Positions 25,301 to 59,094 of a DNA stretch of 64,000 nt are shown here, piece after piece. The first letter of the stretch is position 1. Each line of letters opens with the position of its first letter. This DNA comes from Tetraselmis striata (taxonomy: Eukaryota; Chlorophyta; Chlorodendrophyceae; Chlorodendrales; Chlorodendraceae): NCBI GenBank assembly GCA_006384855.1, contig VCJN01003009.1, positions 1 through 64,000 on the forward strand. The letters run 5' to 3'. A program made the position numbers and the translations under genes. The notes beneath the pieces are model-generated. The model was not told the origin of the DNA. It made no database searches and saw only the letters and a list, made by a program, of their open reading frames with translations.

Positions 25301-28300
25301 GAGGAGGTCCCAACAACATCCCGTGTATACATGGAATTGAGCCCGCTCTCCATGTTGCCACTCAGGAGGTGAGGTGCGTTTGGTATTGGCAAGTGTCTAG
25401 TGAATATGGGTAAGTACCAATAGACCACGATACAAAAACTCCGCACCGTCCGACCAAACATGGCACGCGGCCCGGATGGTACATACCGTGACCAAACCCC
25501 AGGGGATAGGAGGGGGGGGGAGGGGGAGGGGGGGGCGGGAGAAGGGACAGCCCATGCGGAGAAGTGAATGCTTCGTGACAATGCGCTGAGCATTCCGGGG
25601 CATCGGCATCGGCGAGGCGCACCTCGGAAGCCACGTCCAGGTCGATCAGCTTGTAGGTGTCGCCACTGCGCATCACGTTGAGCGGCTTGATGTCGCCGTG
25701 GACGATGTCGCTCTTGTGGAGGTGATCCAGGGCGTTGGCCAGGTTGGTAGAGATGAAGCGCACCAGCGCCCAGTCGTCCCCAGCTGCGGCGCGGTCGTGC
25801 GTGATGGCGCTGCTGAGGCTGCGCTCTGCCTGCGGCATCACCAAGCAGAAGCAGTACTTGCTGTACTGGGCGTTGCGCCCAAAGTCCTTCCGCAAGTGCA
25901 CCTCCACCCCAGGGGCCTCCGTGCGCAGCCGCTGCTCGATGCCCGCCGCGCCAGAGACCTCGGCAGCGAGGTGCACCCGCAGCACGTTGACCACAAAGTC
26001 ACTGCTGAGCTGGTGCTGCTGCCGGAGCGCCACCTCGCGCAGGAAGGAGTCGCCCTGCCGCATCAGCTTCAGCGCCACCAGCTGCCCGCCCGCGTGCGTA
26101 TCCTCCGCCAGCAGCACCGTGCACGTGGCGGAGCGGTGCGCCACAGTAAGCACCCGGTACCGGCCCAGGAAGGCCAGCGCGTCGTCCATCCCTTGACGGC
26201 ATTCGCCGCATGCCTGCCAGTATGCGCTGCGGCCGTCCAGCGTCCAGCCATGCGCCAGCTCTTGGCGCGCCTCCACCGCCCGGCGGACGCCCTCAGCTGC
26301 CTCTTTCAGGGACACGATGTCGTGCCAGGCAGTGAGCGCATCCGGGGTGGCGGCCACGTTTGGCGAGCCAAACGCAGCAACCATTGCCAGAAGGACCGCC
26401 ATTGACGACGATGCAAACTGATGCGGCAGCTGCTCCTCAGAATCAGGTTCTGTCACCGCTGCCGGATGTGACGTCACCAGCGCCTCCACCACCTCCACCG
26501 GCGCCTTGTTCGCAGCTGCCCGGTGCAGCGGCAGGTTGCCCTTCCCGTCCTTCTCCTTGGCGCCGGGCTGGTGCGCCGCCAGCAGCAGCTCCACCACCTC
26601 CACTGGCGCCTTGTTCGCAGCTGCCCGGTGCAGCGGCAGGTTGCCCTTCCCGTCCTTCTCCTTGGCGCCGGGCTGGTGCGCCGCCAGCAGCGCCTCCACC
26701 ACCTCCACCGGCGCCTGCTTCCGAGCTGCCAGGTGCAGCGGCAGCCTGCCATCACTGTCCTTCTCCGCCGCCCCGGCCTGGTGCGCCCGCAGCAGCGCCT
26801 CCACCACCTCCACCGGCGCCTTGTTCATGGTGGCCAGGTGCAGCGGCCCGCCAATCCAATGTTTCTCCTTGGCGCCGGCCGGGTGCGCCGCCAACAGCGC
26901 CTCCACCACCTCCACCGGCGCCTGGGTCGAAGCTGCCCCGTGCAGCGGCAGGTAGTCAAACCTGCCCTTCTCCGCCGCGCCGGCCTGGTGCGCCGCCAGC
27001 AGCGCCTCCACCACCTCCACCGGCGCCTGGTTCTCAGCTGCCCGGTGCAGCGGCAGGCTGCCACCACTGTCCTTCTCCGCCGCGCCGGCCGGGTGCTCCG
27101 CCAGCAGCGCCTCCACCACCTCCACCGATGCCTGATTCTCAGCTGCCCAGTGCAGCGGCAGCTTGCGATAACTGTCCTTCTCCGCCGCGCCGGCCTGGTG
27201 CGCCGCCAGCAGCGCCTCCACCACCTCCACCGGCACCTTGTTCCCAGCTGCCAGGTGCAGCGGCAGTCTGCCATCACTGTCCTTCTTCTTGGCGCCGGCC
27301 TGGTGCGCTTCCAGCAGCGCCTCCACCACCTCCACCGGCGCCTGGTTCCCAGCTGCCCGGTGCAGCGGCAGCCTGCCCTTCCTGTCCTTCTCCTTGGCGC
27401 CGGGCTGGTGCGCCGCCAGCAGCGCCTCCACCACCTCCACCGGCGCCTGCTTCTCAGCTGCCCCGTGCAGCGGCAGCTTGCCATCACTGTCCTTCTCCGC
27501 CGCGCCGGCCGGGTGCGCCGCCAGCAGCGCCTCCACCACATCCACCGGCGCCTTGTTCATGGTGGCCAGGTGCAGCGGCAGCCTGCCATCACTGCCCTTC
27601 TTCGCCGCGCCGGCCTGGTGCGCCGCCAGCAGCGCCTCCACCACCTCCACCGGCGCCTTGTTCACAGCTGCCCGGTGCAGCGGCAGGCTGCCACCACTGT
27701 CCTTCTCCGCCGCGCCGGCCGGGTGCGCCGCCAGCAGCGCCTCCACCACCTCCACCGGCGCCTGGTTCCCAGCTGCCCGGTGCAGCGGCAGCCTGCCATC
27801 ACTGTCCTTCTCCGCCGCGCCGGCCTGATGTGCCGCCAGCAGCGCCTCCACCACCTCCACCGGCGCCTTGTTCACAGCTGCCAAGTGCAGCGGCAGGTTG
27901 CCATACTTGTCCTTCTCCGCCGCGCCGGCCTGGTGCGCCGCCAGCAGCGCCTCCACCACCTCCACCGGCGCCTGCTTCTCAACTGCCCAGTGCAGCGGCA
28001 GTCTGCCATACCTGTCCTTCTCCGCCGCGCCGGCCTGATGTGCCGCCAGCAGCGCCTCCACCACCTCCACCGGCGCCTGCTTCTCAACTGCCCAGTGCAG
28101 CGGCAGTCTGCCATACCTGTCCTTCTCCTTGGCGCCGGGCTGGTGTGCCGCCAGCAGCGCCTCCACCACCTCCACCGGCGCCTTGTTCACAGCTGCCCGG
28201 TGCAGCGGCAGCCAGCCATCACTGTCCTTCTCCGCCGCGCCGGCCTGGTGCGCCGCCAACAGCGCCTCCACCACCTCCACCGGCGCCTGGTTCCCAGCTG

Positions 28301-29177
28301 CCAGGTGCAGCGGCAGCCTGCCATCACTGTCCTTCTCCGACGCGCCGGCCGGGTGCTCCGCCAGCAGCGCCTCCACCACCTCCACCGGCGCCTGGTTCCC
28401 AGCTGCCCGGTGCAGCGGCAGCCTGCCGTTCCTGTCCTTCTCCTTGGCGCCGGGCTGGTGCGCCGCCAGCAGCGTCTCCACCACCTCCACCGGCGCCTGC
28501 TTCTCAGCTGCCCCGTGCAGCGGCAGCTTGCCATCACTGTCCTTCTCCGCCGCGCCGGCCGGGTGCTCCGCCAGCAGCGCCTCCACCACCTCCACCGGCG
28601 CCTTGTTCATGGTGGCCAGGTGCAGCGGCAGCCTGCCATCACTGCCCTTCTCCGCCGCGCCGGCCTGGTACGCCGCCAGCAGCGCCTCCACCACCTCCAC
28701 CGGCGCCTGGTTCTCAGCTGCCCGGTGCAGCGGCAGGCTGCCATAGCTGTCCTTCTCCGCCGCGCCGGCCGGGTGCGCCGCCAGCAGCGCCTCCACCACC
28801 TCCACCGGCGCCTTGTTCTGGACAGCGCAGTGCAGCGGCAGCTTGCCATTGCCGTCCTTCTCCGCCGCGCCGGCCTGGTGCGCCGCCAGCAGCGCCTCCA
28901 CCACCTCCACCGGCGCCTTGTTCATGGCGGCGAGGTACAGCGGCAGCCTGCCAATACTGTCCTTCTCCGCCGCGCCGGCCTGGTGCGCCGCCAGCAGCGC
29001 CTCCACCACCTCCACCGGCGCCTGGGTCGCAGCTGCCCAGTGCAGCGGCAGCCTGCCATCACTGTCCTTCTTCGCCGCCGCTTGCGGGTCCGCCTCTAGG
29101 TGTGGCAGCACCTGTCGCCAGTCCGCCTCTCCACTCCACTTCTCGCACTCTTCCACCCATCTTGGGTCGTCCCCCAT
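22353..29177 (-). CDS. ankyrin-kinase protein, paralogue 2 (25 ankyrin repeats)
   Basis: Exons 29177-25623, 24688-23987 and 23273-22353 join in phase 0 with GT-AG ends to give about 1,725 residues. The start ATG 29177 gives MGDDPRWVEECEKWSGEADW, matching paralogue 3 from residue 4 on; an upstream GTG-initiated extension looks like 5' UTR. Kinase landmarks are intact: LVALKLMR, LREVALRQQ, HGDIKPLNVM, LIDLDVASE, and CAPEV and DLWGFGVTLF in exon B. Exon C has the same FILACPKEV and AGRLAGILVPDLG region, then a coiled coil about 22 residues shorter than in paralogues 1 and 3. Intron 1 is 934 bp because of an insertion; intron 2 is 713 bp. One ankyrin unit has 34 residues (HWIGGPLHLATMNK). Likely a cytosolic protein kinase whose ankyrin array binds partners; ligand and substrate unknown. 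Confidence 0.85.
24867..25456. other. ~590-bp insertion in intron 1 of ankyrin-kinase paralogue 2
   Basis: Introns 1 of paralogues 1 and 3 are 338 and 334 bp. Paralogue 2 shares their flanks (GAGACGGTGGAGCAGGACA on the left, CATGGCACGCGG on the right) but has extra, relatively AT-rich sequence between them. I see no clear inverted repeats, target duplication or ORF. Confidence 0.55.
26455..29080 (-). repeat. ankyrin array 2, 105-bp tandem units (25)
   Basis: Units 4-8 and 14-18, counted from the N-terminus, match in their variable residues (for example GSDGRLPLHLATMNK then DSDGKLPLHGAAEKQ). This gives a 1,050-bp higher-order period. Confidence 0.9.
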
Positions 29178-38600: not shown

Positions 38601-41600
38601 TGAGGCTGCGCTCTGCCTGCGGCATCACCACGCAGAAGCAGTACTTGCTGTACTGGGCGTCGCGACCAAAGTTCTTCCGCAAGTGCACCTCGACCCCTGG
38701 GGCCTCCGTGCGCAGCCGCTCCTCGATGCCCGCCACGCCAGAGACCTCGGCAGCGAGGTGCACCCGTAGCACGTTGACCACAAAGTCACCGCTGAGGTGG
38801 CGCTGCTGCCGGAGCACCACCTCTCGCAGGAAGGAGTCGCCCTGCCGCATCAGCTTCAGCGCCACCAGCTTCCCGCCGGCGTGCATATCCTCCGCCAGCA
38901 GCACCGTGCAGGTGGCGGAGCGGTGCGCCACAGTAAGCACCAGGTACCGGCCCAGGAAGGCCAACGCATCGTCCATCGCTTGACGGCATTCGCCGCATGC
39001 CTGCTGGTATGCGCTGCGCCCGTCCAGCGTCCAGCCATGCGCCAGCTCTTGGCGCGCCTCCACCGCCTGGCGAACGCCCTCAGCTGCCGCTTTCAGTGAC
39101 ACGATGTTGTGCCAGGCGGCGAGCGCGACAGGGGTGGCGGCCACATTTGGCGAGCCAAACGCAGTAATCACTGCCACAAAGACCTCTGGCCACAAAGACG
39201 ATGCGGCTAACTGATGCGGCAGCTGCTGTTCGGAATCAGGAACGGTCACCGCTGCCGGATGTGCCGCCAGCAGCGCCTCCACCACCTCCACCGGCGCCGT
39301 GTGCGCAGCTGCCAAGTGCAGCGGCAGCCTGCCACCACTGTCCTTCTCCGCCGCGCCGGCCGGGTGCGCCGCCAGCAGCGCCTCCACCACCTCCACCGGC
39401 GCCTGGCTCAAAGCTGCCCAGTGCAGCGGCAGCTTGCCATCACTGTCCTTCTCCGTCGCGCCGGCCTGGTGCGCCGCCAGCAGCGCCTCCACCACCTCCA
39501 CCGGCGCCTGATTCCGAGCTGCCCAGTGCAGCGGCAGGTTGCCATCACTGTCCTTCTCCGCAGCGCCGGCCTGGTGCGCCGACAGCAGCGCCTCCACCAC
39601 CTCCGCCGGCGCCTTGCCCACAGCTGCCCAGTGCAGCGGCAGGTTGCCATCACTGTCCTTCTCCGCCGCGCCGGCCTGGTGCGCCGCCAGCAGCGCCTCC
39701 ACCACCTCCACCGGCGCCTTGTTCTGAACAGCCCAGTACAGCGGCAGCTCGCCATCACGGTCCTTCTCCGCCGCACCGGCCGGGTGGACCGCCAGCAGCG
39801 CCTCCACCACCGCCACCGGCGCCTTGTTCTCAGCTGCCCAGTGCAGCGGCAGGTTGCCATCACTGCCCTTCTCCGCCGCGCCGGCCGGGTGCGCCGCCAG
39901 CAGCGCCTGCACCACCTCCGCCGGCGCCTGCTTCCAAGCTGCCAGGTGCAGCGGCAGGTTGCCATCACTGCCCTTCTCCGCCGCGCCGGCCGGGTGCGCC
40001 GCCAGCAGCGCCTCCACCACCTCCACCGGCGCCTGGGTCGCAGCTGCCCGGTGCAGCGGCAGCCTGCCATCACTGTCCTTCTCCGCCGCGCCGGCCTGGT
40101 GCGCCGCCAGCAGCGCCTCCACCACCTCCACCGGCGCCTGCTTCTCAGCTGCCCAGTGCAGCGGCAGCCTGCCAACGCTGTCCTTCTCCGCCGCGCCGGC
40201 CGGGTGCGCCGCCAGCACCGCCTCCACCACCTCCACCGGCGCCTGGTTCCCAGCTGCCAAGTGCAGCGGCAGGTTGCCATTCCTGTCCTTCTCCGCCGCG
40301 CCGGCCTGGTGCACCGCCAGCAGCGCCTCCACCACCTCCACCGGCGCCTGATTCTCCACTGCCAGGTGCAGCGGCAGCCCGCCATACCAGGCCTTCTCCA
40401 CCGCGCCGGCCGGGTGCGCCGCCAGCAGCGCCTCCACCACCTCCACCGGCGCCTGGTTCGCAGATGCAAAGTGCAGCGGCAGCCTGTGATACTCGTCCTT
40501 CTCTGCCGCGCCGGCCTGGTGCGCCGCCAGCAGCGCCTCCACCACCTCCACCGGCGCCTTGTTCGCAGCTGCCCAGTGCAGCGGCAGCCTGCCATCACTG
40601 TCCTTCTCCGCCGCGCCGGCCTGGTGCGCCGCCAGCAGCGCCTCCACCACCTCCACCGGCGCCTTGTTCGCAGCTGCCCAGTGCAGCGGCAGCCTGCCAT
40701 CACTGTCCTTCTCCGCCGCGCCGGCCTGGTGCGCCCGCAGCAGCGCCTCCACCACCTCCACAGGCGCCTGTCTCGTAGCTGCCCGGTGCAGCGGCAGCCT
40801 GCCGTACTCGTCCTTCTCCGCCGCGCCGACCTGGTGCGCCGCCAGCAGCGCCTCCACCACCGCCACCGGCGCCTTGTTCTCAGCTGCCCAGTGCAGCGGC
40901 AGGTTGCCATCACTGCCCTTCTCCGCCGCGCCGGCCGGGTGCGCCGCCAGCAGCGCCTCCACCACCTCCACCGGCGCCTGGTTCCCAGCTGCCAGGTGCA
41001 GCGGCAGGTCGCCATCACTGTCCTTCTCCGCCGCGCCGGCCTGGTGCGCCGCCAGCAGCGCCCCCACCACCTCCACCGGCGCCTGGTTCTCAGCTGCCCA
41101 GTGCAGCGGCAGCTTGCCATCACTGTCCTTCTCCGTCGCGCCGGCCTGGTGCGCCGCCAGCAGCGCCTCCACCACCTCCACCGGCGCCTGATTCTCAGCT
41201 GCCAGGTGCAGCGGCAGGTTGCCATGCCTGTCCTTCTCCGCCGCGCCGGCCTGATGCGCCGCCAGCAGCGCCTGCACCGCCTCCACCGGCGCCTGATTCT
41301 GCATTGCCCGGTGCAGCGGCAGCCTGCCATCACCGTCCTTCTCCGCCGCGCCGGCCTGATGCGCCGCCAGCAGCGCCTCCACCACCTCCACCGGCGCCTG
41401 ATTCTGCATTGCCAGGCGCAGCGGCAGCTTGCCATGCCTGTCCTTCTCCGCCGCGCCGGCCTGATGCGCCGCCAGCAGTGCCTCCACCACCTCCACCGGC
41501 GCCTTGTTCTCCACTGCCCAGTGCAGCGGCAGGCTGCCATACCAGGCCTTCTCCACCGCGCCGGCCGGGTGCGCCGCCAGCAGCGCCTCCACCACCTCCA

Positions 41601-43128
41601 CCGGCGCCTTGTTCTGAACAGCCCGGTGCAGCGGCAGCCTGTGATACTCGTCCTTCTCCGCCGCGCCGGCCTCGTGCGCCGCCAGCAGCGCCTCCACCAC
41701 CTCCACCGGCGCCTGGGTCGCAGCCGCATAGTGCAGTGGCAGTCTCCCATCACTGTCCTTCTCCGCCGCGCCGGCCTGGTGCGCCGCCAGCAGCGCCTCC
41801 ACCACCTCCACCGGCGCCTGGGTCGCAGCTGCCCAGTGCAGTGGCAGTCTCCCATCACTGCCCTTCTCCGCCGCGCCGCCCTGGTGCGCCGCCAGCAGCG
41901 CCTCCACCACCTCCACCGGCGCCTGATTCTCAGCTGCCAGGTGCAGCGGCAGGCTGCCATCACTGTCCTTCTCCGTCGCGCCGGCCTGGTGCGCCGCCAG
42001 CAGCGCCTCCACCACCTCCACCGGCGCCTGGTTCTCAGCTGCCCAGTGCAGCGGCAGGAAACCCTTACTGGTCTTTTTCTCTGCGCCGGACTGATGCGCC
42101 GCCAGCAGCGCCTCCACCACCTCCACCGGCGCCTTGTTCGCAGCTGCCAGGTGCAGCGGCAGCAAGCCATACCTGCCCTTCTCCGCCGCGCCGCCCTGGT
42201 GCGCCGCCAGCAGCGCCTCCACCACCTCCACCGGCGCCTGTTTTTTAGCTGCCCAGTGTAGCGGCAGCTTGTCATCACTGTCCTTCTCCGCCGCGCCGGC
42301 CTGGTGCGCCGCCAGCAGCGCCTCCACCACCTCCACCGGCGCCTTGTTCGCAGCTGCCCAGTGCAGCGGCAGTCTCCCATCACTGTCCTTCTCCGCCGCG
42401 CCGGCCTGGTGCGCCGCCAGCAGCGCCTCCACCACCTCCACCGGCGCCTGCTTCACAGCTGCATAGTGCAGCGGCAGCCTGCCATCACTGTCCTTCTCCG
42501 CCGCGCCGGCCTGGTGCGACGCCAGCAGCGCCTCCACCACCTCCACCGGCGCCTGGGTCGCAGCTGCCCGGTGCAGCGGCAGCCTGCCACCATTGTCCTT
42601 CTCCGCCGCGCCGGCCTGGTGCGCCGCCAGCAGCGCCTCCACCACCTCCACCGGAGCCTGCTTCTCAACTGCCAGGTGCAGCGGCAGGTTGCCATCACTG
42701 TCCTTCTCCGCCGCGCCGGCCTGGTGCGCCGCCAGCAGCGCCTCCACCACCTCCACCGGCGCCTGGTTCTCAGCTGCCAGATGCAGCGGCAGCCTGCCAT
42801 CACTGTCCTTCTCCTCGGCGCCGGCCTGGTGCGCCGCCAGCAGCGCCTCCACCACCTCCACCGGCGCCTTGTTCTGAACAGCGCAGTGCAGCGGCAGCCT
42901 GCCATTCCTGTCCTTCTCCTTGGCGCCGGCCTGGTGCGCCGCCACCAGCGCCTCCACCACCTCCACCGGCGCCTGCTCTCCAGCTGCCCAGTGCAGCGGC
43001 AGCCTGCCATCACTGTCCTTCTCCGCCGCCTCTTGCGGGTCTGCCTCGAGGTGTGGCAGCACCTGCCGCCAGTCCGCTTCGCCATTCCACTTCCCGCACT
43101 TTTCCACCCATCTTTGGTCGCCCGCCAT
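35618..43128 (-). CDS. ankyrin-kinase protein, paralogue 3 (36 ankyrin repeats)
   Basis: Exons 43128-38410, 38075-37374 and 36610-35618 join in phase 0 (introns 334 and 763 bp) to give about 2,137 residues, the largest paralogue. The start MAGDQRWVEKCGKWNGEADW is followed by 36 complete 35-residue ankyrin units. A linker ending PDSEQQLPHQ then leads to the kinase domain: LVALKLMR, LREVVLRQQ, HGDIKPLNVM, LIDLDVAAE, then CAPEV, DLWGFGVTLF and LLVKDPGQRRA from exon B. Exon C carries AGRLAGILVPDLGGF and a Gln-rich coiled coil (EERLHRQQQQYEKELQELQE). All kinase residues needed for catalysis are present, with DLD replacing DFG. The AGRLAG segment after the kinase recurs, from memory, in algal and oomycete kinase and ROCO-like proteins. 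No signal peptide or membrane span was seen. Confidence 0.88.
38309..38334. repeat. 26-base G run (C on the sense strand) in intron 1 of ankyrin-kinase 3
   Basis: Lies about 75-100 bases downstream of the donor. Equivalent runs sit at 14310-14328 and around 25512-25537 in the other paralogues. Confidence 0.9.
39246..43025 (-). repeat. ankyrin array 3, 105-bp tandem units (36)
   Basis: 3,780 bp equals 36 exact units. The consensus runs DSDGRLPLHWAA, a short variable stretch ending NQ or NK, then APVEVVEALLAAHQAGAAEK. Variation concentrates at unit positions 1-5 and 10-15. Pairs such as DEYHRLPLH + AWYG recur at units 14-15 and 25-26, and APVAVV at units 21 and 31. Confidence 0.92.
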
Positions 43129-48992: not shown

Positions 48993-49322
48993 TGTTGGCT
49001 ACTCAGCCCTGTCTAGCCCTGCTTTGCCAAACCCTACACCTGACAGTTACATCACCATAGTCATCAAGTCAGGTGACCGTTCGGGGACCTACCCGGCGGT
49101 TCCCTTCCCTCATAGGGGGGCAACGCTTCGCAGTTGTAGTAGTTTTACTTAGAGACCCTGGAGGCACCGGCCAACTACCCGCATCCAGCTGGAGTACGGG
49201 CGAGTCTGACCGAGGTGTGACCGTTCAGTCGCACGACCCAGACATATAGATAGTCCGGAACTCCGCAAATGTAACCATTCCTTCTTTCTCTGTTTCCAGT
49301 TCCCGAGGCATCCCTTTATCAG
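48993..49322 (+). repeat. 5' LTR of the copia element
   Basis: Begins TGTTGGCTA and ends ATCA. It aligns along its length with 58780-59094, apart from about 15 extra bases near 49075. A TATA-like ATATAGATAG lies near 49244. Confidence 0.85.
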
Positions 49323-49847
49323 GCTATGGGCCCTTTCACTTAGTAGACTTCCTCGACATTTTTTCTTTGCACTACCTCGGCCGCTCTGGCTGCTTGCCAG
49401 CGAGCGAGCCGACCTTAAAAACAGCTCGGAACTGATTGACCTTCCTTCCCCCTTACCTCTCGCTTAGACGCCCACTTCAACACCCTTGTGTCGACAACGC
49501 CTTCAGACGTCGTACCTATTTTCTGCCCCTTTGTGTCTGCCTCGGCCTCAACGCCTTTGGACTTCTTCTTGCTTATCCTCTACAAGCTTGCGTTCGTCAC
49601 CATCTCAGCTCGCTAAAATTAAAAAATTGTGCAACATCATCGTCGACCTCTTCCTGTTATCATATTTACTGCCGCCGGCAAGTTGCCTTTCAACCTTTCA
49701 ACCCTTTCAGCTTTCAACCCTTTCGACCATTTCAACCGACGGACGCCTTTCAACCCTTTCAGCCATCAAACCTTTTCAGCTGGACGCCTTCCATCCCGTT
49801 CAAACCTTTCAGCCGGACGCCTTTCAACCCAGTGTTTCTTCTAGAAC
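49323..49847 (+). other. 5' leader of the copia element with pyrimidine-rich repeats
   Basis: Between LTR and gag. From about 49685 to 49835 it holds many copies of TTTCAACC and TTTCAGC. I could not identify a convincing tRNA primer-binding site after the LTR. Confidence 0.55.
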
Positions 49848-50498
49848 ATGACCTCAGCGACCTCCGGCGCGTCCTCTGCCGTCTTGTTTGAGGAGAGCGG
49901 CATGCAACGTGTCGAGCCACAACGCGCTCCCAAACTTGCGGACCGGGCCAGCATTGAAGATTTCATCACATGGCGCGAGTCTTTTATATCATGGGCTGCC
50001 AGAAACGGCCTCGCTGAGGCACTGGCCGGGAGCGGGGGCAACCTGCGTCAAAATCTTCTCTTCGAGTGCGTGGAGGCAGCCGTTCGACAAAATCCTCTTG
50101 CCACTGCGGAGGCCAATTATTGTACCCCTTTTGACAACGATGTCCTCGCTATCGACAACCACCATGGCGCGGCTGCGTGGGGCGCGGTGTTAAATCTGTT
50201 TCAGCAACACAAGCATAGGCACGTGAAAACGGTAATGGACGGCTTGCGACGTGATCAGCTCGCGCATGAAGACCTAGGCGCTTGCATGTATCGCATGGAG
50301 ACTATGCGCCGTACCTTGCGTACCACCTTGGAGACGGAGCTTACGGACGATGACTTCATGGATCTATATTTTGTTCCCGGTATCCACGAGCGCTATGAGA
50401 AACTGCGGGACGACTTGGAGGAGCTACATACGGGCAGACGGCATCCATTGCGACTACGAAGCGCTTCGCCGCAAAGTCATGATCAAGGCTCTTCGTGA
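49848..50498 (+). CDS. copia gag-like protein
   Basis: Open for 216 residues from MTSATSGASSAVLF. It has the usual gag helical region (IEDFITWRESFISWAARNGL; AAWGAVLNLFQQHKHRHVKT; LGACMYRMETMRRTLRT). In a shifted frame, about 100 bases past its stop, a CCHC-knuckle-like segment reads CSRYGRARHTYST, with key Cys and Gly replaced. Gag would form the nucleocapsid-like particle. The position after the leader and before the methyltransferase fixes the assignment. Confidence 0.65.
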   Translation: MTSATSGASSAVLFEESGMQRVEPQRAPKLADRASIEDFITWRESFISWAARNGLAEALAGSGGNLRQNLLFECVEAAVRQNPLATAEANYCTPFDNDVLAIDNHHGAAAWGAVLNLFQQHKHRHVKTVMDGLRRDQLAHEDLGACMYRMETMRRTLRTTLETELTDDDFMDLYFVPGIHERYEKLRDDLEELHTGRRHPLRLRSASPQSHDQGSS

Positions 50499-50808
50499 AG
50501 CCGCCAGGCGTCCGTCGTTGTCACCGCACGTGCGTTGAATTCCCTCGCGCTCCTGCTCCCGTCACCCCACCACCAGTGGCGATGTCGGCGTCGCTCCCCA
50601 CCCAGTCCCGCCCCCACCGTGAATGCAGTCGCTATGGTCGTGCCCGTCACACATACAGCACCGTATCGCTGGCAAACGCGGCACGTCAACGGCTCCAGGC
50701 TCCTTGATTCCCCGCCGGCGGAGAAATCTGCGTGGCTTGCCAGCGGTGGCCTTCGCACTCGGGAGCACAGCAGGAGCACGCCCGGACCCTAATAAGTCCT
50801 AGCCGCCC

Positions 50809-52428
50809 GTGTTGCATGGCGGGCGGCCCACCGGTGCTATCGCCAGCGTCCCTCCCATCGTGGAGTTGCCTAGGGACGGTTTCGTCTGCATGGCTCACGC
50901 CTCCGCTATTCCACTTTCCCTTCCAGTCTGCGACGGATTCAATGTGCCCTCTTTTACCGTCGTCGAGTCTTCACCTACTGAGCCCCCGCAGGGACGACGC
51001 AGTTGCCCCGCCTCGGCCGGGTGTGACGGATTCGATGATGAACAGCTCGATGTGATGGATGGAACGTGTACCGGCGGGGTGGGCGCTGAGCGTGCCACCT
51101 CAACTAGATGTGGTGACCTGAATGATACCATGGCCGCGCGGAGTGGCGGCATTGATCTGGCTGGGCGCGGCAGTCAACACGCCACATGTGCTCTACGTGG
51201 ATCTGCCTCACCACTCATCGATTACACCAATTGTGGGCGCCGTTGCTCTCTCTACACCGATGCCCCGTCTGCCGTTGGTCCACTCCGCCCATGTGCCCAT
51301 TCATCACGTTGCATGTATGCCCTTAATGGCGCGTCACCGCCGTTGGAGCGCTCCGCCATTGACCATCACTCATGGGTCACGGGCCCTGCGACTACGGATG
51401 GCTGCGCCACGACCATGAACATGTGTACGCCATCCACATTAGCTTTCACAACAATCGCTCCACCCTTGGCGTCCGCCCCAGAGCTCCCGTCCCTTCAGAC
51501 CGTGGGCCTGGTTCCCCTTCCTCATGCTTCCGTCATTAACCATCTCCTCGGGCTATGCTGCGGTGGGACGCTCTCTCTGCTCGACGGCATGCTGACGGCA
51601 GGCTTTGTGGTCACTAGGGTGACGCTTTGTGGACTTAGTCCCGTGCGAAGACGTTGGGCCGCGGACCGTCTTCGGATGCTGTCCGCCGAGTATCCGACCC
51701 AGCTCCGCGAGGACGCCTTTCATGATGAGGCGTTATCCTATACGCCGCAGGACGTGACCTTAATCACTGAGGATGTGCTTGCGGGCATGCCTCCGGTCAC
51801 CGTGGTTGCTGCGGGGCCCTGCTGTGAGCCTTCGTCTAGTGTTGGCTCCGGTCGCGGGTGGGAGGATGTGCGCAGCGGCGTTATGGCAGCCGTCATTCGT
51901 ATTGTACGGTATATGGCGGAGGCGCAGTCTGCCTCAGTTTCCTACTTAACAGAAAATGCGCCGGGACCGCTGAAGTGTCCAGAGCTTATCCTCTCTCTCG
52001 GCGAGCCTCTCATCGTAAACGCGTTGGATTGTGGTTCGTCGCATGCCCGGCGTACACTCATGTGGACCAACGCCGCCCCTTATAGCTCTCTCATGGACCA
52101 CTACGCCGCTCAACGTCACTCGGCGCCGCCACTGGCGGCGGTGATGTCATCGCACGGCATGTCGCCCGAATGGACATGCACTCGCCCGGACCAACGTCAC
52201 CTTCCTAAACTGGTCGCGTCAGCGGGAAGCTATGCCTTTCGTCCTCGGTCGGACGGATCTCCTGGTGCAAGAATGCTGATGCATCTTGGGCAGATGGAGG
52301 AACCGGATGCCCTAGTGCGCGCTCTTGTCATGGGATTCCCTAGGAACGCGGTGTTCTGCACATCTATCCCCGAGGATGAGTTGTGTGCAACCCTTGGAGG
52401 CTGCGTGGACCGCAACCTTGCAATCTAG
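50809..52428 (+). CDS. cytosine-5 DNA methyltransferase-like domain inside the copia polyprotein
   Basis: A 539-residue open frame without an early ATG (bounded upstream by TAG 50797-50799), so probably part of a polyprotein. The first 240 residues are low in recognisable content. Residues about 246 on show C5-MTase order: motif I LLGLCCGG with TAGFVVTRV after it; a linker ending TPQDVTLI; motif IV VVAAGPCCEPSS, where the catalytic Cys would be residue 338 or 339 and the usual PCQ is altered; motif VI ENA (about 382); motif VIII GSSHARRTLMWTN; a late KLVASAGSYAFR; ALVMGFPRN; and motif X-like LGGCVDRNLA. The fold would move methyl groups from AdoMet to cytosine. It ends at a TAG, after which the same frame continues into the protease. 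It is the longest intact frame of the element. Confidence 0.72.
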   Translation: MLHGGRPTGAIASVPPIVELPRDGFVCMAHASAIPLSLPVCDGFNVPSFTVVESSPTEPPQGRRSCPASAGCDGFDDEQLDVMDGTCTGGVGAERATSTRCGDLNDTMAARSGGIDLAGRGSQHATCALRGSASPLIDYTNCGRRCSLYTDAPSAVGPLRPCAHSSRCMYALNGASPPLERSAIDHHSWVTGPATTDGCATTMNMCTPSTLAFTTIAPPLASAPELPSLQTVGLVPLPHASVINHLLGLCCGGTLSLLDGMLTAGFVVTRVTLCGLSPVRRRWAADRLRMLSAEYPTQLREDAFHDEALSYTPQDVTLITEDVLAGMPPVTVVAAGPCCEPSSSVGSGRGWEDVRSGVMAAVIRIVRYMAEAQSASVSYLTENAPGPLKCPELILSLGEPLIVNALDCGSSHARRTLMWTNAAPYSSLMDHYAAQRHSAPPLAAVMSSHGMSPEWTCTRPDQRHLPKLVASAGSYAFRPRSDGSPGARMLMHLGQMEEPDALVRALVMGFPRNAVFCTSIPEDELCATLGGCVDRNLAI

Positions 52429-52440
52429 TTCTTCCGGGCT

Positions 52441-53277
52441 GTGGCCGCCTGTCTTTGCACATCCATGCCCTGCACGGCTCTACCCGCATGCGCAATTCTT
52501 CCCAACACCGTACCTCCCAGTCCTCATCTATTCCTGCTGGATAGTGGCGCGTCGTGGCATGTCGCTGGCCGGCGTCATTGCTTCTATACTTACACGCCAC
52601 CGGCGACCTCGAACCAGTTTCGCCTCGGCGGCCCGTGCGCAACAGTTTACGGCGTGGGTACCTTACATGTTATTTACACATCTACCGCCGGTCAACCAGT
52701 CATCTCCATTTTGCGGAATGTGCTCCACGCTACCGGCCTTCTCACCGCCGCTCTTCCGCACGTTGTGGAGTTCCTTTTCAGCCAGAGCGCAGCGCAGTCC
52801 TCCGGCGCGACTTTCTACTTCGGCCCTAGCGCTTTCACCATGACTCTCCCTTCCGGTGCAGATGTCAGTGTGGAACGCCTGCACGATGTTGGGCTCTACG
52901 CGCTGCACGCTGTCGTGACCCCTTCTGCCCATGTGCCCCAAGCTAGTGCTCACCCACTCTCCTCCCCCGTGCCGGTGGCGGCGGCCGCTGTCGGCCGTAC
53001 GGGGGGATTTACTGGCTCTCGTGCCTAGGCTGCTCTCCTCCATGCGCGAATGGGTCACACCCATCATGACGGCATCTTGCGAACCGCCAAACTGGTGCCC
53101 AATCTCCTCTATGTTGTTGGTGCCCCACCGTTCTGCGAGGTGTGCGCACTCGTCAAGTCCACCGTCGCTGCAGTTCCTCGCAGCGTTAGCTCGCGCTTTG
53201 AGCATGAACCATTCGCCGTGCTCAACCTCGACATATGGGGACCATGGCTCCGTCGCTCCACGGCCGCCGGTGAATGA
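52441..53277 (+). pseudogene. copia aspartic protease and pre-integrase region
   Basis: Same reading frame as the methyltransferase ORF, separated from it by TAG 52426-52428. FLLDSGASWHV is the retropepsin DSGA motif followed by copia-type His. A second in-frame TAG at 53026-53028 is followed by ARMGHTHHDGILRTA, then FCEVCALVKS (the GAG-pre-integrase H..H..C..C zinc site) and VLNLDIWGPW with the first integrase Asp. The frame ends at TGA 53275. The three stops make it inactive unless bypassed. Confidence 0.7.
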
Positions 53278-53327
53278 TTGGCGCCAACTGCTGACGCACG
53301 AATGTTCACCTGGCGGGCAGTCTAGTT

Positions 53328-54317
53328 ATGCAGTCCGAGGCGGCAAGTGCAGTAGATCGTTTCTTGGCTTTTGCACGCCGCAAGGGGTTCAAGGGGTTCA
53401 CTGTCCGCCAGATCGGCGTTGACCGCGCTGATGTGTTCATGTGCTCTACTCTTGAGAAGAGCTGCATAGACAATAATGTGGATATGCAGACATGCGACAG
53501 CTATAGCCCTCATCAAAACGCGCGCGCGGAGCGCCCTTGGCGAACCCTGGCCTGCATTGCCAAATGCCAACTGCTTTATGCCGGTCTACCCCTTCGTTTC
53601 CGGGAGCTCTCTTGGTACCACGCAGTTTACATCCTTAATCGCAAGTGGAGCGCCGGACCCGCCAATATTCCGTTGCTCGCTGCTGGTCAAGAGGTAGACC
53701 TCTCCGGCCTGCGGGTCTTCGGCTGCCCGGCCTACGTGCACCTCGACCGTACGCTTCGCCGAAAGGCGGACGTGGCGGCATGGAAAGGTATATACGTGGG
53801 CCAGTCGCCTAATTCTCCTAAATGGCAGGTGTATAACCCCACCACCGGCGGGATCTCGGTGACACGCAGTGCGGTGTTCTGCGAGAGCTGGCGGCAGGGC
53901 CACACCTTTCCATTCGGTATCCAGTCCTTCCTTAGCGAGCCCTTGTTGGAGTCGCCAGCGCTCTCTGTTGACGACGACGACGACCATGCGCACCCTCCCG
54001 CATACATTCCCACCGGAGTTATCAACCCCTCCGTGGACCTTCCAATATCGCCTGCCTCTCCGCGTCCCTGCTCTGTAGACGACGACGACCATACCCCCGG
54101 ACCGCAGCCGGTCCTTGCCCAGCTGCCCTCCTCACTGGCCTCACCCTCGTCAACTCTCCTCTCTGCGGAGACGATCCCACTACTCTCCCTTGAATCATCT
54201 CCAAGCCCTTCCGCCCCGGCATCCTCTACCGCTACCCCCACGTCGCCCCTGCAGCGTGGTTCTTCCCTGCCTCCCGCGCGCTATCCCGTCCACGGTCAGC
54301 TCCCACGCTGTGGCTGA
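53328..54317 (+). pseudogene. copia integrase core, C-terminal part
   Basis: In a new frame after a shift near 53275-53330. SYSPHQNARAERPWRTL contains the catalytic Glu, and later VFGCPAYVHLDRTLRRKADV and GIYVGQ are copia integrase landmarks. The second catalytic Asp region is degraded (GVDRADVFMCST). A low-complexity Ser/Pro/Asp linker follows to the stop at 54315. The integrase would insert the cDNA copy. Confidence 0.7.
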
Positions 54318-54689
54318 TTCTTCCTCTAGCAACTACGGCGGCGACAATCCTGCCGCGGACGTCCGCCGGCTGCCAGCGCCGCCATCTTCCCCGCCACTAT
54401 TGCGTCGCAGCACCCGCGTCCGTTTCAGCACCGCCGATGATTCCTACGTCTACTATGGGACCACTAACTAAGTCCTCATGCCCGTTTGCCCCGGCTGCCA
54501 TCGTGAATTCAGTTTCGCTTCCCCCCGCCCTCGCTCAGCACGACATCCCGTGCAACGCCGGTGTGCCAACCGCCCTCTTGGCGTGCGCGACACCTCGGCC
54601 TGACAACGCAGGCCGGGACTTTCAACTCCATTGTTCAGCCCATACCTCCGGCTTTTGCCTGGCAGCCTCAGCACCTCGCCATTCCCCTA

Positions 54690-55692
54690 GTGGAGATCCA
54701 CCTCCCGACCCGCGCATGTATGACGAAGCAATGCGCTGTCCCTACGCAGGCTGCTGAGTGGCAGGCTGCCGTTGCAGCATAAAATGCTGCCCTTCTCGCC
54801 AAACAGACGTGGAAAGTGTGTCCACTCCCTGCCGGGCATCAAGCGCTCGGTACCCGGTAGGCCTTTCGGACCAAATTCTTAAAGTTGGAATGGGTCTATT
54901 GACAAGCACAAGGCTCGCTCGTAGTTTTGGGCAATCATCAACGCCCCAGCATCGACTTTGACAGCACCAAGCTGCATGCGCATGTGGTCTCTTTTGTCTC
55001 CATTCGCATGCTGCTCGCCCTGGCTGTCCACTTTCGTCGCCGCATCTACAATATGGACGTCACCACCGCGTTTCTCAATGCCAAGGTCACTAAGGAAATT
55101 TACATCAAGCTTCCCCGCGGCATGGAGGAATGTTTTGAGAGTGGCGAACCTATGGTGGGTGGACTCCTCCGCGCCCTCTACGGCCTCCGCCAATCACCCG
55201 GCCTTTGGCTTAAAGAGCTAGCCAATTATCTCAAGCGCGATAATTTTCGACAATGCACATCGGATGGGTGTGTGTATGTACAACGCGTTGGCACCGACGG
55301 GGACTTCGCAGTTGTCGCAATCTACGTTGATGACATCATCATCCTCGAGGCGGCGGATCCCTCGTGGTACCCGGCGTTCAAGACTCGTTTGCTGGCGGAG
55401 TTCGACTGCACCGACGCTGGCCGTTGCACCTGGCTCATGATGGGGATGTGCCTCGACTGGGACGACGATGACGGGTCCGTTATTCTTCATCAAACTAAAT
55501 ATTTTCATGACGTCCTCGCCACCTTCGGCATGACAGATTGCAAACCGCAGAGCCTACCGTGTCGCGTGGACACCCGCCTCTCAGCCACTGCAGGCACTCT
55601 CCTCCCAACCGATCAAGTATCTCTGCACAAAGCAACTGGTGGGCAGCCTTATGTGGCTCTCTGTATATACCCGCCCGGATATCACTGCGACA
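54690..55692 (+). pseudogene. copia reverse transcriptase (RVT_2)
   Basis: The N-terminal part is spread over frames (MYDEAMRCPYAGC, then QTWKVCPLPAGHQALGTRW). The core 54927-55692 is open: YNMDVTTAFLNAKV, LLRALYGLRQSPGLW and AIYVDDIII hold the polymerase Asp residues. It runs into the RNase H region and is cut at 55697 by the nested element. Confidence 0.75.
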
Positions 55693-55898
55693 GTCACTGT
55701 GACAATTATACGAGTACGATATACTACGAGTTAGTACATGTGTGTACTAGTACAATGTGTACCTGAGACTACGAGTATATGTACTGTATAATGCTGCCGT
55801 GACAATTATACGAGTACGATATACTACGAGTTAGTACCTGTGTGTACTAGTACAATGTGTACCTGAGACTACGAGTATATTTACTGTATAATGCTGCC

Positions 55899-56035
55899 GT
55901 GTGGTAAGCGTTGTGCTTCGGAGCCGGATTGATACCGCCTCAATTGTTACAAGGCGCCAGCATCCTGATGTAAGGTTCACCAGTTCGAACCCCGCTGATG
56001 TCGAGAATTGAATTCTCGCAGGGGGGGGCGGAATG
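55899..56035 (+). repeat. possible tRNA-derived SINE-like segment
   Basis: Between two module copies lies a unique stretch with GTGGTAAGCGTTGTGCTTCGG and, about 70 bases on, CCAGTTCGAACCCC. The latter resembles the T-loop/B-box of a tRNA promoter. Stem pairing is poor, so it is not a tRNA gene. Confidence 0.35.
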
Positions 56036-56140
56036 TAGTGTGACAATTATACGAGTACGATATACTATGAGTTAGTACCTGTGTGTACTAGTACAATGTG
56101 TACCTGAGACTACGAGTATATGTACTGTATAATGCTGCCG

Positions 56141-56540
56141 TGACAATTATACGAGTACGATATACTACGAGTTAGTACCTGTGTGTACTAGTACAATGTG
56201 TACTTGAGACTACGAGTATATTTACTGTATAATGCTGCCGTGTGGTAAGCGTTGTGTTAACAACAATTGTTCTATGCTGAAAAACACTGTAGCCTCTCGC
56301 CTCCGAAACCAGTGCGACAGTCTCAGCCGGATAGAGACTGCAAGGACAAACAAAGGTGGTGTGCAGTGGTGGTGCAGAGGCGAGAGGCTACAGTGTTTTT
56401 CAGCATAGAACAATTGTTGTTAACACAACGCTTACCACACGGCAGCATTATACAGTAAATATACTCGTAGTCTCAGGTACACATTGTACTAGTACACACA
56501 GGTACTAACTCGTAGTATATCGTACTCGTATAATTGTCAC
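56141..56540. repeat. long inverted repeat (foldback) with ~75-base loop
   Basis: Left arm 56141-56302 and right arm about 56379-56540 are almost perfect inverse copies (TGACAATTATACGAG ... AGCCTCTCGCC). The arms are about 160 bp. Confidence 0.85.
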
Positions 56541-56550
56541 GGCAGCATTA

Positions 56551-57972
56551 GCGAGTAAAATTCCGATTTCGCGCAGTTAAGGACCTTAATGGGGCTTGCG
56601 GATAGGGCATTGGCATGATGGCTACCGAACCGGGCTAGCCTGAAAGTTCAGCTCCCAAGGTGTCCGGGGATGGTCGGATGGCCCCTGGGGCCGACCGATA
56701 GACCCAAAAATGACGATACCTAATTAAGAAGGTCAAGACCTGAATTTTCCTGGACTGATCATAATTTCGCGCACCGCCCCGCGGGGCTACAGTCGCTAGC
56801 ACTCTTGCACACTCACCAGCAGCCGACGCCCCAAACCCCAACCTCACCGCCCATCCGGAGCGCCCCCGTATTCACACACGGCCCTGGACTGCAAGCAGGT
56901 GTCGGAACTAGCAACCATACCTCAGTGGGCCGGTGGATGGTGCGTGTGGGCGTGAGCGGCGGTGTGCATCGACAAGAGGGGCGGGGTGGGGTGTCGTTGT
57001 TGCAAGGTGACTCACTGTTGAACTCGATGTGCTGCTGCCCTCGCCTCCTTCTCAGCTGCCTTCTTTGCTACGAACCTCTCGCGAGCTAGCTGTAGAGACT
57101 GCGTTGATCTCCATGAGCAGCCACTTGACCTGACAGTGGTTGAGCGATAACCCGTTTGCGTGCTGCTGCAGGATCCTCTGGACCACCTCCTCCTCCTCTT
57201 GCCTGGACAGTACGGGTGCTCTGCCGGCGTTGGAACATCGCATGCCGCTCTCGGAGTGGAAATAGCCTCGAAGGGTAGCCTCAGGTATGCCCCACTTCTT
57301 GGCCGTTGCCCTCAAGTTGAACGTCTTGCCATTCTTGAAATCAGCTGCGGCTGTGAGCTCAGCCATCGCGCACTCCATGCAGTGATCGTCCCAGGTGCGG
57401 TAGCGGAGGGCGGTTCAGGGACAGGAGCTTGGTAGCCGCGCCTGCACGGGCCTTGATCGCGACGAGGACGAGTAGCGGAGCGAGAAGAAGGACGACGAAA
57501 GCGGACTGCCATAGGGAGGCGAGCGAGTAATAGTGAGGAAAACCGCTGGCGACAGCGCCCAGCGCTGCTGCCGGTAGTCGCGCCATCGCGCGCGTAGTCA
57601 CGTCGAGAAAGTGATGCTCCGGCGACTCCGACCCCGCAGCCGACAATGCAAGGACCAGGGTGGGGTCCCTTGACGTGGGTGGGGGCTGTCGACCGCTTGC
57701 GGGCGCTGAGAAGGTCGGTGCGAGTGCGCAGCGAGTTAACATCTGTCGTCCCGCGCGATTGAAACTGTTGACCTTCGCATCTTTCGGCCCTTCCCGCGAC
57801 TCGCACATTAAAAATTGCCAATGCAACCCCATATGATTCTGAAAGCTCTTGAGCTGAGCTTTCAGAATCGTATTATGTTTCATTGGAGATTCTTAACAGT
57901 TTTTGAGAGAATCCAGCTTTTTAACAAAAGTGCGCGAAGTTTGTGTTGCGCGAAATTGTGGTCAGTACTCGC
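56551..57972 (-). mobile_element. TA-flanked DNA transposon remnant (pogo/Tc1-like) inside the foldback element
   Basis: Ends GCGAGTA...TACTCGC with imperfect inner terminal repeats (ATTTCGCGCA on the left, TGCGCGAAAT on the right). It is flanked by TA at 56549-56550 and 57973-57974. Removing it restores the ~100-bp module. It encodes a psq/CENP-B-type protein but no DDE domain. Confidence 0.65.
57052..57378 (-). CDS. psq/CENP-B-type DNA-binding protein of a pogo-like element
   Basis: 108 residues from ATG 57378. The N-terminal half reads FNLRATAKKWGIPEATLRGY, a psq-type helix-turn-helix as in pogo and Tigger transposases. The next part, GRAPVLSRQEEEEVVQRIL, is the start of a CENP-B-type second DNA-binding domain. 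The expected DDE catalytic region is absent, so it is a truncated transposase or a domesticated-like DNA binder. A different frame at its end continues as coiled coil (RFVAKKAAEKEARAAA), suggesting a frameshift or splice there. Confidence 0.6.
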   Translation of the reverse strand: MECAMAELTAAADFKNGKTFNLRATAKKWGIPEATLRGYFHSESGMRCSNAGRAPVLSRQEEEEVVQRILQQHANGLSLNHCQVKWLLMEINAVSTASSREVRSKEGS

Positions 57973-58065
57973 TATACAGTACATATACTCGTAGTCTCAG
58001 GTACACATTGTACTAGTACACACAGGTACTAACTCGTAGTATACCGTACTCGTATAATTGTCACA

Positions 58066-58705
58066 GTCACCAAGCTATGTTCTTACAATCACAAACCCAC
58101 AGACCAGCATTTGCTGGCAGCTAAGGGCGTGCTCCGCTACCTCGCCGGTTCCGCTACCCTTGGTCTACACTATACTCAGACCACAGCCCAATCCTTCATC
58201 CCGTAGTTGTTCGCAGTTGACTCCGACTGCTGGGCAAGGGAGGCCGACGACCGTCGCTCTACATCCGGCCATGTCGGATGTCTCTCGGGATCTGCTTTCT
58301 GTTTGGGCTCCCACAAGCAGGCCACTACCGCTCTCTCTTCATGCGAAGCGGAATATGTCTCCGCGTCTGAAGCTAGACGCGTCATTATGTTCTCTCGCCA
58401 GTTTTTGTGCAAGGTTCTCGGACCGGCTGCCTTGGAGGACCATCCCGTCACTCTATAGTCCGACAATGAAGGCTCCCTTTGCAATCTGCGTCAACTCTCT
58501 GTGGGCCGGAAGTTGCGGCATGCATGACGACATCCGATATCACTACGTTCGTGAATTGGTCGCGTCTCGAGCCATTCACGTGGAGTATGTGCAGTCTACA
58601 TACAACCTTGCCGATATGTTCACCAAGGCTATTCCAAACACGAGGTTCTGCCAGTTGCGGGCCCGCTTCATGCGTGACCACCGTGCCCATCCCCAACTCC
58701 CCTAG
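58066..58705 (+). pseudogene. copia RNase H, resuming after the nested element
   Basis: AAKGVLRYLAGSATLGLHYT and DDRRSTSGHVGCLSGSAF with ALSSCEAEYVSASEA are copia RNase H landmarks. The C-terminal part, VRELVASRAIHVEYVQSTYN and LADMFTKAIP, lies in another frame after a shift near 58460. There is also a TAG near 58204. Not functional. Confidence 0.75.
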
Positions 58706-58779
58706 GCGCTATTTCGTCTTCACCCCGTGTGTTCCCCACCATCAAGCTCTTTCCACCGGTGTTTGGTTTGTGGGGGGGT

Positions 58780-59094
58780 TGTTGGCTAGTCAGCCCTGTC
58801 TAGCCCTGCTTTGCCAAACCCTACACCTGACAGTTACATCACTATAGTCATCAAGTCAGGGGACCCGGCGGTTCCCCTCCCTCATAGGGGGGGCGACGCT
58901 TTGCAGTTCTAGTAGTTCCACTTAGAGGCCCTAAAGGTACCGGCCAACTACCCGCATCCAACTGGAGTACGAGCGAGTTTAATCGAGGTGTGACCGTTCA
59001 GTCGCACGACGTGGACATATAAATAGTCCGGAATTCCGGAACTGTAATCATTCCTTCCTTCTCTGTTTCCAGTTCCTGAGCCATCCCTTCATCA
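58780..59094 (+). repeat. 3' LTR of the copia element
   Basis: Partner of 48993-49322. A TATA-like ATATAAATAG at 59016-59025 is better preserved than in the 5' LTR. Confidence 0.85.

Follow-up and report, generated by a model that had tools for sequence, protein, structure and literature searches.

A DNMT3-type cytosine methyltransferase domain in Copia retrotransposons of the green alga Tetraselmis striata

Why would a transposon carry a silencing enzyme? The question is raised by a Copia element at 48993-59094 of a 64,000-nucleotide stretch of Tetraselmis striata DNA (Chlorophyta; GenBank assembly GCA_006384855.1, contig VCJN01003009.1, positions 1 to 64,000, forward strand), which as a whole is called the window here. 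The initial annotation, made from the sequence alone, placed a frame (50809-52428) with motifs of a C5 DNA methyltransferase (DNMT) between gag and protease of this element. The reading we favour, and to which we give a little better than an even chance, is that the element belongs to a Ty1/copia family with a DNMT3-type enzyme in its single polyprotein, placed after the zinc knuckle of gag and ahead of the protease, and that this enzyme methylates the family's own cDNA.

The assignment to Copia was upheld by direct long terminal repeats (LTRs) and by Pol_BBD, an SH3-like integrase domain and RVT_2 in Copia order, with integrase preceding RVT_2. Frame 50809-52428 was found to lie between gag and protease, an order shared by its relatives. 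Siblings were sought with the methyltransferase domain in the 224-Mb T. striata assembly, where the initial annotation had suggested looking for them; 131 of 466 candidates were scored, and the counts are therefore lower bounds. At least 133 domain matches were obtained, representing by contig and position at least 127 loci: 36 window-like loci (subfamily S1, 53-100% identity), 37 of subfamily S2 (35-38%) and 54 of S3, S4 and others (29-35%). For at least 26 of the loci the surrounding open frame reaches 1900 aa. A lack of further copies, named in the initial annotation as a refuting outcome, was not observed. From loci with long frames, two elements of each subfamily, eight in total, were fetched whole. 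All eight had a single uninterrupted frame of 2130-2299 aa, LTRs 98.5-100% identical and a 5-bp target duplication whose sequence differed each time; some members of the family are thus young, uninterrupted and recently mobile. Given the number of relatives and the intact, recent insertions among them, the association looks like a standing partnership and not an accident. The nearest sibling of the window copy (98%, contig C30) has the same flank and was ruled out as an independent insertion. Likewise, the DNMT2 gene of contig C2482 is mirrored by two paired matches on C1546, and some loci may therefore be allelic duplicates.

One element per subfamily was scanned with Pfam, and in these four polyproteins the order was CCHC, DNMT, protease, pre-integrase, integrase, SH3 and RVT_2. 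DNMT was matched in all four (below the cut-off in S4), Pol_BBD in three, and gag_pre-integrase, integrase, SH3 and RVT_2 in four; the cut-off was passed by SH3 and RVT_2 in 4/4 and by rve in 1/4, with gag_pre-integrase partly below it. The CCHC zinc knuckle was above the cut-off in one element, weak in two more and recognizable by eye in all four. Known companion domains of DNMT3 were not reported by Pfam in any of the four.

With respect to the nature of the domain, profiles, the predicted fold and the siblings agreed on a C5 methyltransferase in the window frame. The profile evidence came from a multi-domain profile, which matched C5 methylases, and not from the window domain alone, which scored below the Pfam cut-off and had no match in the PDB. 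Structure prediction, also proposed at the outset, gave a methyltransferase fold whose best structural match was DNMT3A; the catalytic domain of animal DNMT3A/DNMT3B has the same motif order, with ~14% identity over aligned residues. The aligned domains confirmed motifs I, IV (PC), VI (EN), VIII and X in order. As motif I lies ahead of IV, VI, VIII and X, the circular rearrangement of DRM type is absent. By its motifs the domain is of the C5 cytosine methyltransferase type, with a predicted catalytic fold closest to DNMT3.

A five-domain profile was searched against ~5.8 billion proteins and returned 60: 23 Tetraselmis gene models, 10 environmental proteins with E no higher than 1e-21, and 27 matches of lower significance (E between 1.6e-8 and 1e-5), some of which are labelled bacterial methylases. 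One T. striata gene model, P0001, is identical to the polyprotein of an uninterrupted relative of the window copy (L045) across its first 204 residues. In environmental proteins P0018 and P0020 the DNMT is followed by a Copia protease domain (PF22936, precomputed), and in P0023 a CCHC knuckle was seen by eye ahead of it. A query made of the DNMT and protease portion of the 2299-aa polyprotein returned only five proteins, all from Tetraselmis; among IMG/VR viral contigs 21 stretches fitted a pattern and none was a relative.

In the main DNMT tree (25 rows, 249 columns; P0036, P0037 and one host methylase left out), DNMT3A and all retroelement DNMTs fell on one side of a branch supported at 92/94. 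The branch is unstarred and includes a single, long-branched DNMT3 reference, which makes the placement with DNMT3 tentative. The twelve retroelement rows (80/79) and the nine Copia-like rows (76/75) also grouped, both unstarred, and P0018, P0020, P0023 and P0032 formed with S3 and S4 one starred clade (97/94). An earlier 28-row tree supported the split of DNMT3A plus retroelements at 91.7/93 and the retroelement split at 86.5/90 (Shimodaira-Hasegawa-like approximate likelihood ratio test, SH-aLRT, first), with the nine Copia-like rows not all on one side. An unrooted tree of Copia reverse transcriptases (RTs), for which no outgroup was found (no PDB match), gave (S3,S4) and (S1,S2) with a DNMT-less family between, in agreement with the pairing of the DNMTs. 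The simplest reading of these trees would be one capture before S1-S4 and the environmental relatives split, and, since environmental fusions group with S3/S4, the gag-DNMT-protease arrangement most likely predates T. striata.

Selection was measured in S1 only, with protease/pre-integrase as the yardstick; 24 loci were examined and copies were retained if they spanned 90% or more of a domain. Among young pairs, the DNMT had a pooled omega of 0.35 (20 copies, 153 pairs), protease/pre-integrase one of 0.31 (19 copies, 136 pairs) and the linker ahead of the DNMT one of 0.76 (15 copies, 78 pairs); when the two old copies (window and C30) were compared with young ones the values were 0.35, 0.34 and 0.48, respectively. 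The domain in S1 is therefore held about as strictly as the protease, and it is under purifying selection. A stop codon was present in one of 20 DNMT frames. The catalytic Cys was kept at 23/24 S1 loci, the Glu-Asn of motif VI at 23/24 and the full ENV at 20/24, and both catalytic Cys and Glu-Asn were invariant across alignments of 5, 30 and 14 rows, the first of which joins subfamilies only 30-47% identical to its first row.

The window copy itself is an old, dead copy of the Copia family (Table 1). Its LTR pair shows 86% identity with gaps counted (Kimura two-parameter distance 0.10; 29/309 ungapped sites differ), its internal pieces have 82-89% DNA identity to L045, its polyprotein is split over several frames, and motif VI reads ENA, not ENV. 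Being broken, this copy is itself unable to act. No convincing target-site duplication was found around it, and Pfam reported no family in frame 58058-58705. The stretch after the 5' LTR resembles the half-tRNA initiator-Met primer site of copia, with putative complementarity to the anticodon arm of tRNA-Met; no tRNA genes were found in the window. The nested insertion contains internal 100-bp direct and inverted repeats, is flanked, as judged by eye, by a 5-bp duplication, and holds a minus-strand 108-aa frame that weakly matches a helix-turn-helix domain (BrkDBD, E 0.024). Elsewhere in the window, 15245-16884, 26478-29078 and 39263-43029 are long arrays of a 105-bp tandem repeat, up to 36 copies, which lie in GC-rich sequence and whose unit is presumably ankyrin-like.

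Table 1. Features of the Copia element in the window.
Feature	Positions	Strand	Remarks
5' LTR	48993..49321	+	matches LTRs of L045
Putative primer-binding site	49322..49333	+	adjoins 5' LTR; stretch ends ATGGGCCC; siblings have similar stretches
gag region	49788..50783	+	L045 polyprotein residues 10-341, tblastn 67% identity; frameshifted relative to next piece
Frame with gag end, linker, DNMT, protease, pre-integrase	50428..53244	+	L045 residues 225-1158, tblastn 76% identity
C5 cytosine methyltransferase domain, predicted DNMT3-type fold	51523..52425	+	301 residues, C-terminal part of frame 50809-52428
DNMT motifs		+	motif I ~51544; catalytic Cys 51823-51825; motif VI Glu-Asn 51952-51957
DNMT motifs, later part		+	motif VIII ~52045-52071; motif X ~52330-52347
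Copia protease region (Pol_BBD)	52531..52740	+	Pfam E 3.3e-8
Integrase region	53238..54275	+	SH3-like domain ~53685-53888, Pfam E 1.4e-18
Short third-frame piece, ahead of RT	54467..54748	+	L045 polyprotein residues 1549-1642
Copia reverse transcriptase, interrupted by nested insertion	54750..55697	+	Pfam RVT_2 E 6e-37
Nested insertion, foreign to element	55698..58064	.	2.37 kb, inverted terminal repeats ~98 bp
Polyprotein C-terminal (RNase H) part	58065..58674	+	position-based; tblastn to L045 residue 2152
3' LTR	58780..59094	+	direct repeat of 5' LTR

How might intact members use the enzyme? The DNMT would be synthesized within the Gag-Pol precursor and packaged into the virus-like particle alongside protease, integrase and RT, as its place between gag and protease points to packaging. 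The protease would free it from the precursor, and it could then methylate cytosines of the new double-stranded cDNA or of the fresh insertion, so that the copy would arrive at the chromosome marked as methylated and be protected, or be read differently by the host. Self-methylation of cDNA is discussed in PMC5890265, where two SymbioDIRS-Dnmt3 domains are reported to give de novo CG methylation in yeast.

Several observations weigh against self-methylation by a DNMT3-type enzyme. By profile similarity the domain ranked HaeIII first, then DNMT2, HhaI and DNMT3A, and identity on the structural alignment was 22% to HaeIII versus 14% to DNMT3A. In S1 the proline preceding the catalytic Cys (motif IV is usually PPC) is replaced. 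The base composition of elements, flanks and window gave no CpG footprint linked to the DNMT: CpG observed/expected ratios were 0.96-0.97 in S1 and 0.96 in the pooled flanks of nine elements, 0.81-0.89 in S2-S4 (below the flanks) and 0.89 in one DNMT-less Copia element, with 0.78-0.95 in six 8-kb blocks of the window and 1.01 and 0.84 in the two pieces of the window element. Nor did the old window copy show a clear excess of CpG-to-TpG changes (33/358 versus 74/949 elsewhere) or of G-to-A changes (20/358 versus 44/715). The domains of KnitGypsy and SymbioLINE gave no methylation in yeast, a result described as inconclusive by its authors (PMC5890265). Moreover, DNMT-less Copia elements with frames of ~1561 aa (recognized by frame length, 1529-1585) made up 53 of the 150 RT matches listed from 897 candidates, a list which favours well-scoring RTs. 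They often have several copies per contig, and one of them (L047, G000:C2281:6500-13500) has a 1561-aa frame, a 5-bp duplication and a pair of LTRs with 98.6% identity. Such abundance indicates that the DNMT is unnecessary for Copia mobility in this host. For CpG self-methylation the base-composition data are neutral to negative, and methylation may be short-lived, may fall on other contexts than CpG, or may not occur; the missing footprint is weak evidence, since active SymbioDIRS is not CpG-depleted either (PMC5890265).

The alternatives are taken here in descending order of probability. That the enzyme, set free from many copies, acts on host DNA instead of the element's cDNA, changing chromatin at insertion sites or repressing rival elements or host defence genes, is unlikely. 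The number of domain loci and the long open frames around at least 26 of them would suit this explanation, and such host effects are discussed for Symbiodinium in PMC5890265; a domain ahead of the protease would however be expected to be packaged, and no CpG footprint was seen. A six-frame search of the assembly with human DNMT3A (48 matches, best E 0.002) revealed no convincing native DNMT3 gene, which would also fit a host role but is weak evidence, the search being insensitive to exon-rich genes. Three of its matches lay at Copia DNMT loci, five at a repeated stand-alone methylase and 40 at a Gypsy-type stretch, both described below.

We regard it as rather improbable that the DNMT is carried along without catalytic function, or that it only extends gag as a structural or nucleic-acid-binding part. 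DNMT-less Copia thrive in the same genome, the ENV of motif VI is lost in the window copy and S1 deviates from PPC, all of which a passenger would allow; the omega of the S1 domain, near that of the protease and below that of the linker, and the invariance of catalytic Cys and Glu-Asn in five domains so diverged (30-47% identity) argue the other way. Methylation of RNA, either the element's genomic RNA or its tRNA primer, instead of DNA also seems improbable to us, even though a position beside gag and zinc knuckle would place the domain near RNA, DNMT2, a tRNA methyltransferase, is among the profile's matches, and RNA methylation is raised in PMC5890265 for SymbioLINE, the DNMT of which did not methylate DNA in yeast. 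It is doubtful in a high degree that a retroelement DNMT3 lineage, long resident in Copia of several algae and, through a relative, in a Gypsy-type element of the present genome, replaced the native Tetraselmis DNMT3, so that transposons would supply every de novo enzyme of this kind in the host. The window copy, taken by itself, has a weak Pfam score, which might suggest a misreading or that a piece of a host or bacterial methylase landed by chance in a single Copia copy. This is refuted by siblings of four diverged subfamilies, which have the domain at one and the same place inside a single frame, and by environmental relatives in which it is fused to protease or CCHC knuckle.

Other methylases were encountered in the same assembly. 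A retroelement with Gypsy-type RT, RNase H, integrase, a PHD finger and a DNMT3-like domain (L061:1814-8756; G000:C1687:59000-68000) accounts for the 40 DNMT3A-query matches mentioned above, 35 of which were confirmed by a search with an internal stretch; this stretch occurs in at least 40 copies at 98-100% (40 scored of 74 candidates), and at least 45 loci were found overall. By eye, the DNMT3-like domain of L061 is split over two overlapping frames, motif I ending the first and the rest opening the next, and programmed frameshifting inside the DNMT would fit an overlap common to at least 40 copies. Terminal inverted repeats of 62-65 bp are present and no direct repeat was found in its 9 kb. 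Its C-terminal stretch resembles a methyltransferase by eye, the fold prediction being of low confidence (predicted local distance difference test, pLDDT, 39). A stand-alone C5 methyltransferase gene (~325 aa) is repeated at eight or more places (L001-L006, L008, L058), with EQS instead of ENV in motif VI of the seven frames examined, and is probably another mobile or viral gene. An uninterrupted 630-aa methyltransferase frame of bacterial look (L055, G000:C2009) is either a contaminant or a transferred gene. Young insertions, DNMT-less Copia and a DNMT-bearing Gypsy-type family within one genome make it testable why a transposon carries a silencing enzyme.

Compared with Ty1/copia (Pseudoviridae), the Tetraselmis family shares LTRs, 5-bp duplications, the protease-integrase-RT order and RVT_2, and differs in having an additional methyltransferase domain and, separating CCHC from protease, a long linker. 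The initial annotation referred to captures of such enzymes by retrotransposons of dinoflagellates and charophytes; these are indeed described in PMC5890265, with LINE, DIRS and Gypsy elements and not Copia as carriers, and Symbiodinium Copia are given there without a DNMT domain. As in that report, the domain lies in a retrotransposon coding frame and in many copies. The closest case is KnitGypsy-Dnmt3 of the charophyte Klebsormidium nitens (de Mendoza et al. 2018, PMC5890265), which is likewise an LTR-type element of the green lineage with an intronless, unrearranged DNMT3-type domain in a polyprotein under purifying selection. Compared by description, it has a Gypsy coding region, DIRS-like repeats and the DNMT in the Pol frame, whereas the Tetraselmis element has a Copia coding region, ordinary direct LTRs, the DNMT ahead of the protease and a chlorophyte host; the Gypsy-type element of T. 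striata is much like KnitGypsy-Dnmt3, inverted terminal repeats included. SymbioDIRS-Dnmt3 and SymbioLINE-Dnmt (PMC5890265) resemble the Tetraselmis family in very many DNMT-bearing copies, purifying selection and DNMT-less relatives alongside, but are DIRS and LINE elements of a dinoflagellate, with SymbioLINE CpG-depleted and SymbioDIRS-Dnmt3 not. One sentence of PMC12344493 (2025) puts DNMT3 in 'LTR Copia and DIRS families', crediting the 2018 report on streptophytes and dinoflagellates, which describes Gypsy and not Copia; Tetraselmis is absent from its main text. In PMC6338049, Gypsy and DIRS retrotransposons are listed as carriers of C5 (DCM) methylases, while the word 'copia' does not occur; green algae figure there as hosts in a list of DAM- and DCM-bearing elements in which adenine and cytosine methylases are unseparated. 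DNMT5a and DNMT6 are reported in Tetraselmis by PMC9998398, where the passages concerned do not mention retrotransposons. In the open-licence literature, supplements aside, we found no report of Copia-borne DNMTs in Tetraselmis or other chlorophytes. What is new is Copia as carrier superfamily, the place that the domain takes in the polyprotein, and a group of hosts from which we found no C5 case in the literature, by which the capture of DNMTs is extended to Copia and, as far as found, to chlorophytes.
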